Source: Acidobacteriota bacterium (lineage in GTDB: Bacteria; Acidobacteriota; Terriglobia; Terriglobales; Acidobacteriaceae). From it: a stretch of 64,000 bases of DNA. The notes beneath the pieces are model-generated. The model searched no databases and was not told where the DNA came from. It worked only from the letters and a program-made list of their open reading frames with translations. The position numbers and the translations under genes were made by a program. Location: positions 1 through 64,000 of the forward strand of contig JAJYVF010000014.1 of NCBI GenBank assembly GCA_021792135.1, written 5' to 3'. This document shows, piece after piece, positions 57,619-64,000 of this stretch; positions within the stretch are counted from its first letter, which is position 1, and each line of letters begins with the position of its first letter.

Positions 57619-60618
57619 ATGAGCGTGGCGCTCCCTGTCCTGAACAACACGCATCCGCACGAAAACTTCAGCGCTGCCCGCGAACTGGAAACGAAGCTGC
57701 GCGCCGTGGTCCGCGGCGAGGTCCGCTTCGATGCGGCATCGCGCGCACTCTACGCCACGGACGCATCCAACTACCGCCAGACGCCCATCGGCATCGTGAT
57801 CCCCCGCGATGCCGCCGATGTGGAAGCCACAATCGCCGCCTGCCGCGAACTGGGGGCGGCCATCCTGCCCCGCGGCGGAGGCACCAGCCTCGCCGGCCAG
57901 TGCTGCAACGTCGCGGTCATTCTCGACTTCTCGAAATACATGCGGCGTCTCGTCAGCCTCGACCCGGAGAAGAAGCTCGCCATCGTCGAGCCCGGCATCG
58001 TGCTCGACCGCGTGCGCGAGGCCGCCGAGCAGTACCACCTCACCTTCGCCCCCGATCCCGCCACGCACAGCCGCTGCACCATCGGCGGCATGATCGGCAA
58101 CAACTCCTGCGGAACGCACAGCGTGATGGGCGGCCTGACCGCCAACAACATCCGTTCCCTCGACATCGTCCTCGCCGACGGCACGCGCATGACCGTTGGG
58201 GCCACCAGCGACCAGGAGTTCGCGGCCATCGTCGCCCGCGGCGGCCGCCCGGCGCAGATCTATGCCGGGATGCGCCGCATCCGCGACCAGTACGCCCATG
58301 AGATTCGCCGCCGCTTCCCGAAAATCCCTCGCCGCGTCTCCGGCTACAACCTCGACGAACTGCTCCCCGAGCGCGGCTTTCATGTCGCGCGCGCGCTGGT
58401 CGGCGCCGAAGGCACGCTGGCCACCGTCGTAAGCGCCACGCTGGATCTGATGCACAGTCCGCCCTGCCGCCGCCTCGTGGTGCTGGCCTTCCCCGACGCC
58501 TTCCTCGCCGCCGATGCTGTGCCCGAAATTGCCACCTATGGCCCCATTGGCCTCGAAGGCCTCGATTTCATGCTGATCGACTTCATGCGCCGCAAGGGGC
58601 TCGCAGCCGAGCACATCGGGCTCCTGCCGGAAGGCGGCGGCTTCCTGCTCTGCGAATTCGGGGCCGAAACCCCTGAAGCAGCCGAAGCCAAAGCCCAGGA
58701 ATTCCTGGCTGCTTCGTCCCGATTTTCCGTTGCGCCCATCAGCGGCCGCCTCTACTCAACAGCCGATGCCGCCCGCATCTGGTTCGTCCGCGAATCTGCT
58801 CTCGGTGCCATGGTCTTCGTCCCCGGCGAACCGCACGGCTGGGAAGGCTGGGAAGACGCCGCGGTGCCTCCCGAAAAGCTGGGCGCCTACCTGCGCCAGA
58901 TCACGGATCTCATGCGTGAATTCGGCTACCGCAGCCCGCTCTACGGCCATTTTGGCCAGGGCTGCGTCCACTCACGCGTCAATTTCGATCTGGAAAGTGA
59001 GCCCGGCATCCGCAAATTCCGCGAATTCCTGGACCGCGCCACCGACATCGTGATCGCCCTCGGTGGCTCCATCTCCGGCGAACACGGCGACGGCCAGGCG
59101 CGCGGCGCCCTGCTGCCGAAGATGTTCGGAAACGAGCTGATGCAGGCCTTCCGCGAATTCAAGGCGCTCTGGGATCCCGACAACCGCATGAACCCCGGCA
59201 AGATGATCGACCCGATCCGGGTCTATCAGCCGGAAGAAGATCTGCGCCTCGGAGCAGGTTACGTGCCCGCGCATCCCGATACCTTCTTCCGCTTCCCCGC
59301 CGAGCACGGCTCCTTTGCCGAGGCAACGCTGCGCTGTGTTGGCGTCGGCGCCTGCCGCAAAGCGGGCGCCGGCACCATGTGCCCCAGCTACATGGCCACG
59401 CACGAGGAGCAGCACTCCACGCGCGGCCGCGCCCACCTGCTCTGGGAACTGCTCGAAGGAAAAGTGGTGAGCCCCGACTGGCACAACGAAAGCGTTCATG
59501 AGGCGCTCGACCTCTGCCTCTCCTGCAAAGCCTGCAAGAGCGAATGCCCCGTCAACGTCGACCTCGCCACCTATAAGGCCGAGTTTCTGGCGCATTACTA
59601 CGGAGACCAGCTGCGCAGGCCGCAGCACTACGCCTTCGGATTCATGGACCGCCTGGCGCACTCGGCCTCTCTGATCCCCGGTGTCACGCCGCGGCTCGCG
59701 AATCTTTCCCTCTCCATACCCGGGATTTCGAGTGTCATCAAAGCCGCGCTGGGCATCGCACCGCAGCGCGATCTGCCGCAATTCGCCGCGCGCAGTTTCC
59801 AGAGTGAATGGCTGCCGGCGCATCGGCGACATGGGGTTTTGAAGGGGCGCGACTTTAGTCGTGCCCTAACCGGTCGCGAAAGGGATGGGGCTTCAGGCCC
59901 TGAGGGCCATTCTCTCCGGGCGGTCCTCTGGCCCGATACCTGGAACAACTACTACCACCCGCAGTCGCTCCACGCCGCCGCGCGTGCCCTCGCCTGTGCC
60001 GGATTCACTGTCGAGGTCCCGCGTAACCACGTCTGCTGCGGCCGACCTCTCTACGACTTCGGGTTCCTCCGCCAGGCCCGCGAATACCTGCTGAGTATCC
60101 TCCGCCAGTTCGCCCCGCAGATCGACGCCGGTCTTCCCTTCGTCTTCCTCGAACCGAGTTGCGCCAGCGTCTTTCGCGACGAACTGGTGAACTTCTTCCC
60201 CGAGGACGATCGCGCTCGCCGCCTGCGTGAGCAGACCCTCCTGCTCAGCGAATTCCTGGTTCGCCGCGCGCCGGATTTCCGGCCTCCCTCGCTCGCCGGG
60301 CGAAAGATCGTCCTCCACGGCCACTGCCACCACAAATCGCTGATGAAGATGACTGACGAGCTGGAGATCCTCCGCCGCACCGGCGCCGCAGTCGATCTTC
60401 TCGACTCCGGCTGCTGCGGCATGGCTGGCCCCTTCGGCTTCGAGCGCGAGAAATTCGAGGTCTCGCAGACGCTCGGCGAACGCGTTCTGCTGCCCGCGGT
60501 CCGCGCCGCCGCGCCGGATACGATCCTCGTCGCCGACGGCTTCAGCTGCCGCGAACAGATCGCCCAGAACAGCCCGCGCAGAGCGGTTCACTTTGCTGAA
60601 GTCATCGCGCCTGGCTAA
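57619..60618 (+). CDS. FAD-linked dehydrogenase fused to 4Fe-4S/CCG-domain oxidoreductase, carrying an in-frame repeat
   Basis: The 999-residue protein unites a VAO-type FAD domain (about 25-550: LPRGGGTSLAGQCCN, DPATHSRCTIGGMIGNNSCGTHS, GTLATVVSATL, GSISGEHGDGQARG) with two 4Fe-4S clusters (CVGVGACRKAGAGTMCP from about 573 and CLSCKACKSECP from about 632) and two CCG domains (HVCCGRP at about 805 and SGCCGMAGPFGFE at about 930). This is the YdiJ-like D-lactate/2-hydroxyglutarate dehydrogenase layout that passes electrons to quinones. Residues about 740-764 are encoded by a repeat element (59836-59905), between the Fe-S domain and the first CCG domain. Confidence 0.88.
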   Translation: MSVALPVLNNTHPHENFSAARELETKLRAVVRGEVRFDAASRALYATDASNYRQTPIGIVIPRDAADVEATIAACRELGAAILPRGGGTSLAGQCCNVAVILDFSKYMRRLVSLDPEKKLAIVEPGIVLDRVREAAEQYHLTFAPDPATHSRCTIGGMIGNNSCGTHSVMGGLTANNIRSLDIVLADGTRMTVGATSDQEFAAIVARGGRPAQIYAGMRRIRDQYAHEIRRRFPKIPRRVSGYNLDELLPERGFHVARALVGAEGTLATVVSATLDLMHSPPCRRLVVLAFPDAFLAADAVPEIATYGPIGLEGLDFMLIDFMRRKGLAAEHIGLLPEGGGFLLCEFGAETPEAAEAKAQEFLAASSRFSVAPISGRLYSTADAARIWFVRESALGAMVFVPGEPHGWEGWEDAAVPPEKLGAYLRQITDLMREFGYRSPLYGHFGQGCVHSRVNFDLESEPGIRKFREFLDRATDIVIALGGSISGEHGDGQARGALLPKMFGNELMQAFREFKALWDPDNRMNPGKMIDPIRVYQPEEDLRLGAGYVPAHPDTFFRFPAEHGSFAEATLRCVGVGACRKAGAGTMCPSYMATHEEQHSTRGRAHLLWELLEGKVVSPDWHNESVHEALDLCLSCKACKSECPVNVDLATYKAEFLAHYYGDQLRRPQHYAFGFMDRLAHSASLIPGVTPRLANLSLSIPGISSVIKAALGIAPQRDLPQFAARSFQSEWLPAHRRHGVLKGRDFSRALTGRERDGASGPEGHSLRAVLWPDTWNNYYHPQSLHAAARALACAGFTVEVPRNHVCCGRPLYDFGFLRQAREYLLSILRQFAPQIDAGLPFVFLEPSCASVFRDELVNFFPEDDRARRLREQTLLLSEFLVRRAPDFRPPSLAGRKIVLHGHCHHKSLMKMTDELEILRRTGAAVDLLDSGCCGMAGPFGFEREKFEVSQTLGERVLLPAVRAAAPDTILVADGFSCREQIAQNSPRRAVHFAEVIAPG
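59836..59905 (+). repeat. Coding palindromic element, copy 1 (inside the FAD/Fe-S gene)
   Basis: This 70-bp element aligns without gaps to 63798-63867, with 49 identical positions by my count. It holds a hairpin GGGCGCGAC (59845-59853) / GTCGTGCCC (59858-59866) with one G-U, and a second palindrome GGGGCTTCAGGCCC near its end. It is in frame and adds VLKGRDFSRALTGRERDGAS to the protein. Confidence 0.8.
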
Positions 60619-61018
60619 CGCGTCCGGGTTTCCGGACCCGGACCGCTTTGCTCTGTGCTTCTGCGGCGGCCTCTTCTGCCCTGAACTTTGCGATTCGTTC
60701 GATCAGCCTCACCGGAACCGGCTCGCCGAGCGGAACCTGGATCGTTCCTTTGCTCACTTTGTAGTTCTTCAGTTCGCCTGCAAAGGCTGCAACCAGGCGA
60801 TTGTTGCCTGGATAGAGAGAGAAGTGCTCCTTCCACCCGGCAAAGAAAAGGATCGTGCGGCCGTGCAGCTTATAAGCGGGCATGCCGTACGAGATCGTCT
60901 CCTCCGCGTCCGGCATCGAGCGGCGGATCACCTCCCTGACCTGCTCGAGCGTGTTTCTGGAGACTTCGGGTTGCGAGGCAATGTACTCGTCGACGGACGA
61001 GGGTGTGCTCCTGGCCAT
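60602..61018 (-). CDS. DUF1801 protein (YdhG/Fra1-like)
   Basis: The 138-residue protein is a DUF1801 protein: YIASQPEVSRNTLEQVREVIRRSMPDAEETISYGMPAY is the family signature, followed by FFAGWKEHFSLYPG and GTIQVPLGEPVP. One member is described as an iron chaperone; the function in general is uncertain. The C-terminus is basic. It overlaps the convergent FAD/Fe-S gene by 17 bases and is divergent from the his operon. Confidence 0.85.
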   Translation of the reverse strand: MARSTPSSVDEYIASQPEVSRNTLEQVREVIRRSMPDAEETISYGMPAYKLHGRTILFFAGWKEHFSLYPGNNRLVAAFAGELKNYKVSKGTIQVPLGEPVPVRLIERIAKFRAEEAAAEAQSKAVRVRKPGRVSQAR

Positions 61019-61089: not shown

Positions 61090-61117
61090 TTGACACCACG
61101 CCCTCTCAGCCCATAAG
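61090..61117 (+). promoter_or_regulatory. Candidate his operon promoter
   Basis: A perfect -35 box TTGACA (61090-61095) is followed after 16 bases by CATAAG (61112-61117), a weaker -10. Transcription would begin near 61124, at the front of the leader peptide coding sequence. Confidence 0.45.
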
Positions 61118-61127
61118 GTGAATGCAG

Positions 61128-61208
61128 ATGCAGGTTCGCGCCCATCGTCGTCATCACCACCATCATCACGTGACGAGCGTGCCGGCCAACTTCCGCATCC
61201 CAGGTTAG
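61128..61208 (+). CDS. hisL: his operon leader peptide (26 codons, run of His codons)
   Basis: A 26-codon frame from ATG 61128 to TAG 61208 reads M-Q-V-R-A-H-R-R followed by six consecutive histidines and then VTSVPANFRIPG. Seven of 26 codons are His, a composition seen only in histidine attenuator leaders. AAGGTG lies upstream (61116-61120); an alternative ATG at 61122 is too close to it. The peptide is not expected to have a function of its own: ribosome stalling at the His codons when charged histidyl-tRNA is scarce would favour the antiterminator. hisI begins 91 bases after its stop. Confidence 0.85.
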   Translation: MQVRAHRRHHHHHHVTSVPANFRIPG

Positions 61209-61268
61209 CAGAAAGCAAACCACCAGGATTGGAAAGCCCGCCGGCGCAGAGAGCGCTGGCGGGCTTTC
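61179..61268 (+). promoter_or_regulatory. his attenuator: antiterminator and terminator helices
   Basis: The terminator hairpin has a 16-bp stem, GAAAGCCCGCCGGCGC (61232-61247) pairing with GCGCTGGCGGGCTTTC (61253-61268) around AGAGA, with one G-U. The segment GTGCCGGC (61179-61186), which starts nine bases after the last His codon, can pair with GCCGGCGC (61240-61247), the top of the terminator's left arm. The two structures exclude each other, as attenuation requires. The bases after the hairpin (ATATTTC) are A/T-rich but not a strict T-run. Confidence 0.8.
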
Positions 61269-61299
61269 ATATTTCAGGAACAACATTCAAGGACGGAAC

Positions 61300-61641
61300 A
61301 TGACTGAACCGACAATCGATTTCGCCAAGATGGACGGACTGGTGCCGGGCATCGTGCAGGACGCGCGCACCGGCCAGGTGCTGATGCTGGGCTTTCTCAA
61401 TGAAACCAGCTGGCGCAAAACCAAGGAATCCGGCTTTGTCACCTTCTGGAGCCGCACCCGCCAGAAGCTGTGGATGAAGGGCGAGACCAGTGGCAACCGC
61501 CTGCGTCTCGTGGAAGTCTCCACCGACTGCGACCAGGACGCGCTGCTCTTCCGCGTCGAAGTTGAAGGCGATGGTCTTGTCTGTCATGAGGGCACCGTCA
61601 GCTGCTTCACGCGAGCGCTGAACAACGGGGTGCGCGCATGA
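61300..61641 (+). CDS. hisI: Phosphoribosyl-AMP cyclohydrolase
   Basis: The 113-residue enzyme opens the purine ring of phosphoribosyl-AMP in the third step of histidine synthesis. Motifs are [34 protein letters not shown], the metal site [11 protein letters not shown], and CHEGTVSCF. It lacks the C-terminal HisE domain that is fused in some bacteria. AAGGACG supports ATG 61300. The stop overlaps hisG by four bases (ATGA). Confidence 0.92.
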
Positions 61642-62513
61642 GTCAGAAACTCCGCCTCGGCATCCCCAAGGGCAGCCTGCAGGATGCAACGCTGGCCCTC
61701 TTCCGCCGCGCCGGCTGGAACATTTATGCCGATGGCCGTTCCTATTTCCCTTCCATCGACGACGGCGACATCGAGTGCATGCTGATCCGCGCCCAGGAGA
61801 TGGCCCGCTACGTCGATCACGGCGTGCTCGACGCCGGCCTCACCGGCATTGACTGGGTCGTGGAAAGCGGTCTCGACGTCCGGAGCATCACCAGCCTTGT
61901 CTATGCGAAGCAGAGCCGCCGACGCGTCCGCTGGGTCCTCGCCGTTCCCGAAGCGTCAGACTGGCAGAAGGCCGAGGATCTTGCCGGCAAAACCATCGCC
62001 ACCGAGCTCGTCGAAGTCACAAAGCGCTACTTCACCTCGAAGAACATCCCCGTCAAGGTCGAATTCAGCTGGGGCGCCACCGAAGTCAAGCCGCCGACGC
62101 TCGCCGATGCCATCGTCGAAGTCACCGAGACCGGCAGCTCGCTCCGCGCCAATCGCCTGCGCATCATCGACACCGTCATGGAAAGCGAGACGCACTTCAT
62201 CGCCAACAAGGGGGCCTGCGCCGATCCCTGGAAGAAGCAGAAGATCGACAACATCGCCCTCATGCTGCGCGGCGCTATTGACGCCCAGGGACAGGTGGGC
62301 CTCATGCTCAATGTCGAAAAGGAGAATCTCCCGACCGTCCTCGCAGTTCTCCCCGCGCTCCATTCCCCCACCGTCTCCGAGCTGAGCGATTCGAACTGGG
62401 TCGCCGTCAATACTATCCTCGAAGAGAGCACCGTGCGCGAGGTCATTCCCAAACTCAAAGCGGCCAGGGCAACGGGCATCGTCGAGTACCCTCTCAACAA
62501 GGTGGTGCTGTGA
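61638..62513 (+). CDS. hisG: ATP phosphoribosyltransferase, long form
   Basis: This 291-residue first enzyme of histidine synthesis is of the long (HisGL) type. Motifs are [46 protein letters not shown], and the C-terminal ACT-like regulatory domain that binds histidine (about 215-291, [30 protein letters not shown]). It is therefore independent of HisZ and is feedback-inhibited. Its stop overlaps hisD (GTGA). Confidence 0.93.
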
Positions 62514-63775
62514 GGATACTCCGCACATCTGGCCGGGGAACGCCGGTGGCTCTGGAAGCCATTGCCGGGCTCACCGACCGCCGCAACGCGAGCTACGAAT
62601 GCGTGCTGCCTCAGGCCCGGCGCATCGTCGACGCGGTGCGCCGCGGCGGCAATGCCGCGCTCCTGCGTCTCCGCGGCAAACTGGATGGGATTCCATCGCA
62701 GTCTCCATTACGAATTTCCGAAGAGGAGCTGCGGACCGCGTGGGATCGGACTCCCGAGCCTCTGCGTCAGGCTCTGAAAACCGCCGCGAAGAACATCCGC
62801 GGCTTCGCTACCCGCCAGTTGCCCCGCGACTTCGACCTCAAACCGGCGCGCGGCGCCGTCACCGGCCAGCGCGTGATCCCTGTCGCATCCGCAGGATGCT
62901 ACGTCCCCAGCGGCCGCTATCCGCTGCCTTCCACGCTGCTCATGACCGTGATTCCCGCTCAGGTCGCCGGGGTCGAACGCATCGTGGTGGTTTCGCCCAG
63001 GCCCGCAAAGGAAACCCTCGCCGCCGCGGCCCTGCTGGGCGTGAAGGAGTTCTACCGCATCGGCGGAGCCCACGCCGTCGCCGCTCTTGCGTATGGCACG
63101 GAGAGCATTCCGCGCGTCGACAAAATTGTTGGCCCCGGCAATGCCTGGGTGACGGCGGCCAAGAAACTCGTCGCCTTCGACTGCGCCATCGACATGCTCG
63201 CCGGCCCGACGGAGATCGTCGTCACCAGCGAAGACGGCGATCCGGCCGCCATCGCCGCTGACCTGGTCGCGCAGGCGGAGCACGACCCCGATGCCGTTGC
63301 CATTTTCATCACCAGCCAGGCGGCCCTCGCAAAGGCCGTTACCGCGGAAGTGAAGCAGCGCATGCGCGGGAACAAAGTTGCCAGACAGTCGATCACCCAT
63401 CGCGGCGCGGCCATCGTCACCCGCTCGGCCGACGAGGCCCGCGACCTGACCAACCGCATCGCGCCTGAACACCTGACCGTCGACAGTGCCGCCGATCTTG
63501 CCTGGGTCCGCAATGCCGGCTCGGTCTTCATCGGCCGCTGGTCGGCGCAGCCCCTCGGCGACTACGTCTCCGGCCCCAACCACACGCTGCCCACCAGCGG
63601 CCTGGCCCGCACCCGCGGCGGCCTCAGCGTTCTGGATTTTGTGAAACTCGTGACCATTCAGGAATACACCGAAGAAGGCATCCGGCGGCTTGGGCCCGCG
63701 GCCATTCGCCTCGCGAATGCCGAAGGCCTCGTCGGCCATGCGGAAGCGATCGGCGCACGAGGGACCCATGAATAA
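62510..63775 (+). CDS. hisD: Histidinol dehydrogenase
   Basis: The 421-residue enzyme oxidises histidinol to histidine with two NAD, using a zinc ion. Motifs are [74 protein letters not shown], and [17 protein letters not shown] with the conserved QAEH. The start is GTG at 62510, overlapping the hisG stop by four bases. It overlaps hisC by eight bases. Confidence 0.93.
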
Positions 63776-64000
63776 GCCAACCTTGCAGGATCGCGCTGTT
63801 TTGAAGGGGCACGGCTTCACCCGTGCCGAGGAACAGCCCGAAAGTTACCGGGCTTCAGCTCCTGAGGCTAACGCCGGCCCGGAGCCTTCCTCCACCAGCC
63901 CTCAACCGTCCGCTGCCGTCCGCCGCATGAAAGAGTACCACCCGCCGCTGGGCGACCGCAGCGGGTTGCGTCTCGATTTCAACGAGAACACCTTCGCCTG
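63768..64000 (+). CDS. hisC: Histidinol-phosphate aminotransferase, partial, with in-frame repeat at its N-terminus
   Basis: Only the first 77 codons are in the window. From about residue 54 the sequence is typical HisC (MKEYHPPLGDRSGLRLDFNENTF). Before it come about 50 unusual residues that start [20 protein letters not shown] and include the repeat element at 63798-63867, in the same frame as in the FAD/Fe-S gene. The ATG at 63768 overlaps the hisD stop by eight bases, favouring this start; the alternative ATG before KEYHPPLG at about 63927 would leave the element untranslated. The enzyme is PLP-dependent and makes histidinol phosphate. Confidence 0.85.
   Translation, partial: MNKPTLQDRAVLKGHGFTRAEEQPESYRASAPEANAGPEPSSTSPQPSAAVRRMKEYHPPLGDRSGLRLDFNENTFA
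63798..63867 (+). repeat. Coding palindromic element, copy 2 (N-terminus of hisC)
   Basis: This 70-bp copy has a perfect seven-pair hairpin GGCACGG (63808-63814) / CCGTGCC (63821-63827) in the same place as copy 1, with one compensated base pair (A-T in copy 1, G-C here). It encodes VLKGHGFTRA ... RASAPE, in the same frame as copy 1. Confidence 0.8.

Follow-up and report, generated by a model that had tools for sequence, protein, structure and literature searches.

Locus organization

The window, i.e., the whole 64,000-nt stretch of acidobacterial DNA analyzed here, includes the first genes of a histidine operon. Promoter-like boxes, a leader open reading frame (ORF), an antiterminator and a terminator all lie 5′ of hisI-G-D-C-B-H-F-A (Table 1). 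The hisI-hisG-hisD-hisC order proposed from inspection of the letters alone (hereafter, the sequence-only reading) is confirmed by family matches, and past the window (record L084) the operon runs on through hisC-B-H-F-A to an aminotransferase gene. The placement of the DNA in an acidobacterial-type genome by the same reading is likewise right. NCBIfam cut-offs are exceeded by hisB, hisH and hisF; hisC and hisA stay below theirs, with hisC, scanned only for the part beyond the window, scoring 259 bits vs the TIGR01141 cut-off of 277. HisA is divergent (L084:2947-3618; 154 bits vs a cut-off of 229), and the gene that follows it at the operon end (L084:3703-4872) encodes an aspartate-type aminotransferase.

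The leader ORF proposed by the same reading, 26 codons that include seven for His, six of these in a row, is read directly in the DNA: the isolated His codon is at 61143, the run precedes the stop TAG (61206-61208), and hisI follows. A second in-frame ATG, at 61122, is probably upstream of the transcription start. On the opposite strand, a DUF1801 gene (60602-61018, strand −) diverges from the leader, and a promoter-like site (61082-61053, strand −) stands back to back with the his promoter.

Table 1. Positions in the window of the his leader elements and of the first his genes.
Feature	Position	Strand	Basis
−35 box TTGACA	61090..61095	+	sequence; promoter recurs in relatives
−10 box TAAGGT (TANNNT type), spacer 18 nt, 8 nt 5′ of leader ATG	61114..61119	+	comparison of window copy (L001)
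Predicted transcription start, giving a 5′ UTR of 0-2 nt	61126..61128	+	usual −10 to +1 spacing
Leader peptide ORF, 26 codons + TAG, 7 His codons	61128..61208	+	read directly: MQVRAHRRHHHHHHVTSVPANFRIPG
Segment 1, partner of segment 2 (anti-antiterminator)	61128..61154	+	duplex test, 60 leaders
Six-His run, putative ribosome stall site, loop of 1:2 hairpin	61152..61169	+	sequence, duplex test
Segment 2, 3′ half of 1:2 hairpin; contains antiterminator 5′ strand	61170..61198	+	folding, duplex test
Antiterminator 5′ strand GTGCCGGC (2 of 2:3)	61179..61186	+	48-leader alignment
Antiterminator 3′ strand GCCGGCGC (3), common to terminator 5′ arm	61240..61247	+	sequence, alignment
Intrinsic terminator hairpin (3:4), 16-pair stem, loop AGAGA, weak U tract	61232..61268	+	folding −33.9 kcal/mol, alignment
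hisI, first structural gene of the operon	61300..61641	+	NCBIfam PRK00051.1, 128.6 bits, cut-off 126
hisG	61638..62513	+	TIGR00070 and TIGR03455, both above cut-off
hisD	62510..63775	+	TIGR00069, above cut-off
hisC, continues past window end	63768..64000	+	TIGR01141 best match; start inferred

It should be noted that HisE (PRA-PH, PF01503) is absent from the genome to which the window belongs (G000), in a search where all 14 controls were positive. Strong HisE matches (>70 bits) occur in only 6 of 61 genomes, of families f4, f9 and f10, and in each of the six HisE adjoins the HisI match within one open frame. Matches of 21-29 bits in other genomes may represent MazG instead. MazG is present in G000 and may, as a guess, fill the missing HisE step.

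Recurrence of the leader in relatives

A blind rule, requiring at least four His codons in seven and a stop codon 40-240 nt before hisI, was applied to related genomes. Of 120 genomes, counting that of the window, 97 gave a hisI match; the other 23, some of which are 99-100% complete (e.g., G033 and G055), possibly belong to histidine auxotrophs or carry a very divergent HisI. Eighty-three loci were read. The 14 hisI genomes left unread comprise 13 of families f4, f9 and f10, whose six tested members carry the HisI-HisE frame, and one fragment (G057). Two of the 83 loci had less than 240 nt of upstream DNA, leaving 81 loci of the class to be counted, and 77 of these have a His-rich leader ORF before hisI. 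The same rule gave 0/81 on the reverse strand, 5/1620 in shuffled sequences and 0/80 in downstream windows. All of 17 further genomes have the leader as well; most of them share one genus code, and one, Granulicella rosea, is also the named record L088.

Among named records with enough upstream DNA, the leader is present in 26 of 79: in 25 of the 28 labelled as Acidobacteriota or its groups and in 1 of the 51 others. The latter, a contig labelled Armatimonadetes (L117), has around positions 1060-1200 a GTG-started His-rich leader and a strong terminator, the leader starting 8 nt after a −10-like box, TAAAGT. Its label may result from mis-binning.

In the phylum outside the class, a His-rich leader precedes a his gene in 23 of 60 regions, and no His-rich short ORF was found on the reverse strands of these 60. 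Occurrence varies with gene order. Thus, the leader is present in all 13 regions with hisG directly after hisI and in 5 of the 14 showing hisI alone; according to the gene search it also stands before the hisG-first operons L207, L208, L230 and L240 and the hisD-first operon L195. Most hisI-last operons have no leader, within the limits of a search in which hisC was not a query and only leaders 20-320 nt ahead of a detected his gene were counted, those ahead of undetected first genes being missed.

Mutually exclusive helices

Duplex and ribosome tests were carried out on 60 leaders chosen by eye from the 83; of the other 23, 21 were tested by an automatic rule. Forty-eight of the 60 make up the alignment used for covariation. 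From the 26 named-record leaders, 24 entered the hairpin and duplex test, L100 and L114 being omitted as copies of L055 and L064.

The sequence-only reading had described an eight-pair antiterminator exclusive with the terminator. This holds: 61179-61186 pairs with 61240-61247 in eight pairs, one of them U-G, and the second strand is shared with the terminator. The 5′ strand starts nine nucleotides past the end of the last His codon, inside the leader ORF. Many relatives extend this helix by two pairs that are lacking from the window copy. In the 48 aligned leaders, 91.1% of the cells of this helix are paired, vs 27-42% with the partner slid, and covariation is 0.236 vs 0.172 (sd 0.011) in shuffles; such cell counts overstate independence, because the sequences are related. 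Changes on both sides occur at 5 of the 10 pairs, and the outermost pair counted is open in 19 of the 48. With one- and two-sided changes counted alike, a quick hisI tree shows at least nine changes of pair type in each of two pairs, and these thus do not go back to one inherited change.

Duplex energies agree with the alignment. Between the leader strand and the terminator arm the mean is −20.9 kcal/mol, vs −14.5 when shuffled, with p ≤ 0.05 in 42 of 60 leaders (the window copy alone reaches p 0.085). The same level is attained in 14 of the 17 further genomes and in 16 of the 24 named-record leaders, all 24 of which have the hairpin. Of the 21 testable loci outside the 60, 17 have leader and hairpin by the rule and only 6 reach duplex p ≤ 0.05.

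The terminator hairpin, announced as 16 bp, indeed has 16 pairs (61232-61247 with 61253-61268), including one G-U. Its U tract in the window, ATATTTC, is poor; because of this weakness, a strict terminator scan of the window does not call the hairpin. Folding of 61123-61299 gives z = −4.26, with none of 200 shuffles as good. In the aligned leaders, 86.4% of terminator cells are paired, vs 31-44% when slid, and covariation is 0.207 vs 0.137 in shuffles; two of the five measures do not rise above shuffles, namely pairs with two-sided changes (175/500) and further pair types (280/500). A T-tailed hairpin at least as stable as −14 kcal/mol is present in 60/60 chosen leaders and in 5/82 and 4/82 windows inside hisI; at −8 kcal/mol the finder is loose, 24/82 control windows being positive. 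Terminators are likewise found in 17/17 further genomes. In most relatives a U-rich tail directly follows the stem, partly by construction, as the finder demands a T-rich tail. Taken together, His codons, antiterminator, terminator and the close promoter described below are kept in relatives, and both helices have changed on two sides, which are the outcomes on which the earlier proposal had been made to depend.

That proposal had called the attenuator complete. Leader, terminator and antiterminator were in place, and the 1:2 helix, found here by duplex test, had been overlooked. In this helix the 5′ end of the leader pairs with bases just 3′ of the His run, so that the His codons form the loop. 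Over the 60 leaders the 1:2 duplex averages −21.6 kcal/mol, vs −15.0 for shuffled and −18.2 for non-cognate partners; p ≤ 0.05 is reached in 36/60, and the cognate partner beats the non-cognate in 48/60 (p 0.073 for the window copy alone). As predicted from these sequences, the 1:2 helix completes a classical 1:2 / 2:3 / 3:4 switch.

In 34 of the 60 leaders, the antiterminator duplex follows the final His codon of the run at a distance of 7-8 nt, which is about the reach, or footprint, of a ribosome waiting on that codon. When the RNA under an assumed footprint was masked and the remainder folded, the expected number of antiterminator pairs was 10.8 with the ribosome stalled on His, 7.4 with no ribosome and 3.3 with the ribosome at the stop codon. 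Under the same assumed footprints, stalled exceeded stop in 58/60 leaders and exceeded no ribosome in 46/60. In the genus to which the window belongs the effect is weak: the window copy (L001) gives 13.6, 13.4 and 7.4 pairs for stalled, no ribosome and stop, respectively, footprints again being assumed. More than half of the pairs thus stay possible with the ribosome at the stop, which in this genus lies ~28 nt past the duplex start, compared with 20-26 nt in many others. The 1:2 default is imperfect, since 7.4 antiterminator pairs form on average without a ribosome; fewer than three do so in only 15/60 leaders.

Promoter and predicted start of the leader RNA

Promoters were scored as a −35/−10 pair matching at least 9 of 12 positions within 50 nt before the start codon. 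Such a pair, with 6-15 nt between the −10 box and the start codon, precedes 75 of the 101 distinct leaders, and in 53 the gap is 8-10 nt; controls gave 0/101 at hisI starts and 16/1010 in shuffles. No promoter of this score is present in the 50 nt before the other 26 leaders. In other classes, 10 of 23 leaders have one, 9 of the 10 at gap 8-9 (one row, L252, is void), and among the 17 further genomes the gap is 8-10 in 15, with a score of at least 9 in 10. In the window itself, TAAGGT matches TATAAT at 3 of 6 positions, and a strict promoter scan of the + strand makes no call at the leader promoter because this −10 box is weak.

With a gap of 8 nt, the −10 element of the window is too near the start codon for a ribosome-binding site. 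By usual −10 spacing, the predicted 5′ UTR of the leader would be 0-4 nt, for which reason “nearly leaderless” is the strictly appropriate term. For comparison, parts of two articles give the −10 box of Corynebacterium his promoters at 7 ± 1 nt upstream, which we take as upstream of the start site (PMC3896937), and predict on average 13.3% leaderless genes in three acidobacterial genomes (PMC3160421). Given a promoter this close to the start codon in 75 of the 101 leaders, the transcript is probably (nearly) leaderless and would begin almost exactly at that codon. The idea that the leader is read from a nearly leaderless mRNA, raised earlier for this one copy, is thereby supported by a promoter geometry conserved in relatives, with starts that are predicted.

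Proposed mechanism and alternatives

The window copy by itself is only suggestive (duplex p 0.073-0.085, weak U tract). Comparison with the sequences of relatives puts the device far beyond chance, and the locus is very probably a ribosome-mediated his transcription attenuator. From what is read in the sequences (His codons, helices and their mutual exclusion, spacing, promoter geometry) we infer the RNA start site, termination at the hairpin, histidine as the signal, and the kinetics. RNA polymerase would start at the leader ATG or a few nucleotides from it, and a ribosome would load straight onto the (nearly) leaderless 5′ end. When His-tRNA is plentiful, this ribosome would pass the six His codons towards the stop, where segment 2 would be covered or folded back on segment 1; with segment 2 unavailable, the 3:4 terminator would form and transcription would end before hisI. 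With scarce His-tRNA, the ribosome would stall on the His codons, covering segment 1 and freeing segment 2, which would capture the terminator 5′ arm (2:3); no terminator would then form, and hisI-G-D-C-B-H-F-A would be transcribed. If the leader were untranslated, 1:2 would favor termination.

A stronger version, which we consider slightly favored on balance, is that of an ancient, phylum-wide acidobacterial his attenuator designed to work from a leaderless mRNA. Start codon and strand 1 of the switch would then coincide in the first transcribed bases, and a ribosome on the bare 5′ end would therefore set the switch from the first codon, making a ribosome-binding site unnecessary. If this is true, the geometry in L117 points to wider descent or transfer.

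Of the alternatives, the least improbable concerns the start of the RNA. The leader might not be leaderless, being transcribed from a promoter further upstream or preceded by a conventional 5′ UTR with a Shine-Dalgarno site. This view draws on the weak −10 box of the window (3/6), on a start site that is only predicted, and on the leaders in which no promoter scoring at least 9 was found, 26/101 in the main set and 13/23 in other classes (one void row). We nevertheless regard it as unlikely, given TTGACA-TANNNT close to the start codon in 75/101 leaders, 53 of them at gap 8-10, the clustering at gap 8-9 of 9 of the 10 close promoters (among 23 leaders) in other classes, and the predicted 13.3% average of leaderless genes in three acidobacterial genomes (PMC3160421, in part). 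Translational attenuation, in which the hairpin would hide the hisI start region with no ending of transcription, is very unlikely. It would account for the weak U tract of the window and the silence of the strict terminator scan, and, according to a part of PMC9413887, some attenuators do replace the terminator by a structure hiding the ribosome-binding site; against this, the AGGA at 61290-61293 lies ~20 nt beyond the end of the hairpin at 61268, and a U-rich tail, for which a sequestor has no use, follows the stem in most relatives (partly by construction).

Still less credible is the view that the product of the leader ORF is a small functional protein, His-rich and metal-binding, whose gene precedes hisI by coincidence, with the hairpin merely as its terminator. 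The same genome does have other His-rich frames, including a short one with a signal-like start and ten His codons (L264, see below). However, the length of the His run and its flanking residues vary among relatives while its position relative to the antiterminator is largely kept, the codons past the run covary with the terminator arm, and the ORF is tied to his operons that differ in gene order. The possibility that His codons and GC-rich complementarity came together by chance in a GC-rich genome, to which the marginal duplex tests of the window alone might be referred, carries virtually no weight in view of class-wide recurrence with controls near zero and of two-sided pair changes in the helices.

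Comparison with known attenuators

The attenuator proposed here resembles the enteric his attenuator (RF00514), whose mechanism is described for E. coli and Salmonella (parts of PMC3896937 and PMC9413887), in having a His-codon leader peptide, exclusive helices and an intrinsic terminator before a his operon. Compared by description, it differs in that its antiterminator strand lies inside the leader ORF and its promoter abuts the leader start codon. The first gene is hisI here and hisG in gamma-proteobacteria (PMC4833913, in part). An Rfam scan of the window gave sub-threshold matches only, RF00514 His_leader among them at 30.7 bits (E 0.0047), below the cut-off of 49, and 0 of 20 relatives reach the cut-off of any family. 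At its cut-off, the His_leader model thus misses a family found in most hisI loci examined in one class.

The sequence-only reading had regarded peptide-based his attenuation as classically enteric. It is known in Proteobacteria but has also been predicted in Firmicutes: His-leader attenuators in the Bacillus cereus group, Peptostreptococcaceae and Erysipelotrichales (PMC9413887) and hisZ/hisS* leaders of bacilli (PMC2965389), both sources being used in part. The Firmicutes leaders share with the present one a His-rich leader peptide, a terminator and an antiterminator outside Proteobacteria; by description, they differ in phylum and in having three to five His in a row (PMC9413887, in part). 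Leaderless leader peptides are likewise on record, judging from parts of the respective articles, for Sinorhizobium trpL (PMC7298713) and Streptomyces lividans leuL, trpL and ilvL (PMC8079986). There, too, an attenuator ORF has its transcript starting at the start codon; these leaders sense Trp, Leu or Ile/Val, belong to other phyla, and have starts read from transcripts, unlike the predicted ones here.

No earlier report of an acidobacterial his or ribosome-mediated attenuator was found among the best matches listed, in a search that had most subscription journals outside its range and took in part of the Lyubetsky and Seliverstov attenuation series (portions of PMC4833913 and PMC1262725); the word “Acidobacteria” is absent from the text of PMC9413887. 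Within the literature searched, the mechanism is thus known, and what appears new is its occurrence in Acidobacteriota, and a major soil phylum would thereby join those in which a leader peptide controls histidine synthesis. The conserved near-leaderless start, as predicted from promoter positions, is in our opinion the most unusual trait of the device. It offers a natural setting for testing whether leaderless translation has the speed that coupling to transcription demands in attenuation.

Other His-rich frames in the same genome

No Trp, Leu or Val/Ile leaders were seen near trpE-, leuA- or ilvB-type genes of the same genome, where gene starts were partly covered. A search of this genome for a second His leader, by runs of five His codons, gave 16 matches at 9 places. 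One of these is the operon leader; the other eight fall within open frames 55-487 aa long, including three short ones (55, 57 and 62 aa). Around position 1506 of L264, a short open frame with a signal-like start contains ten consecutive His codons; judged by its sequence, it looks more like a His-rich small protein than like a leader.
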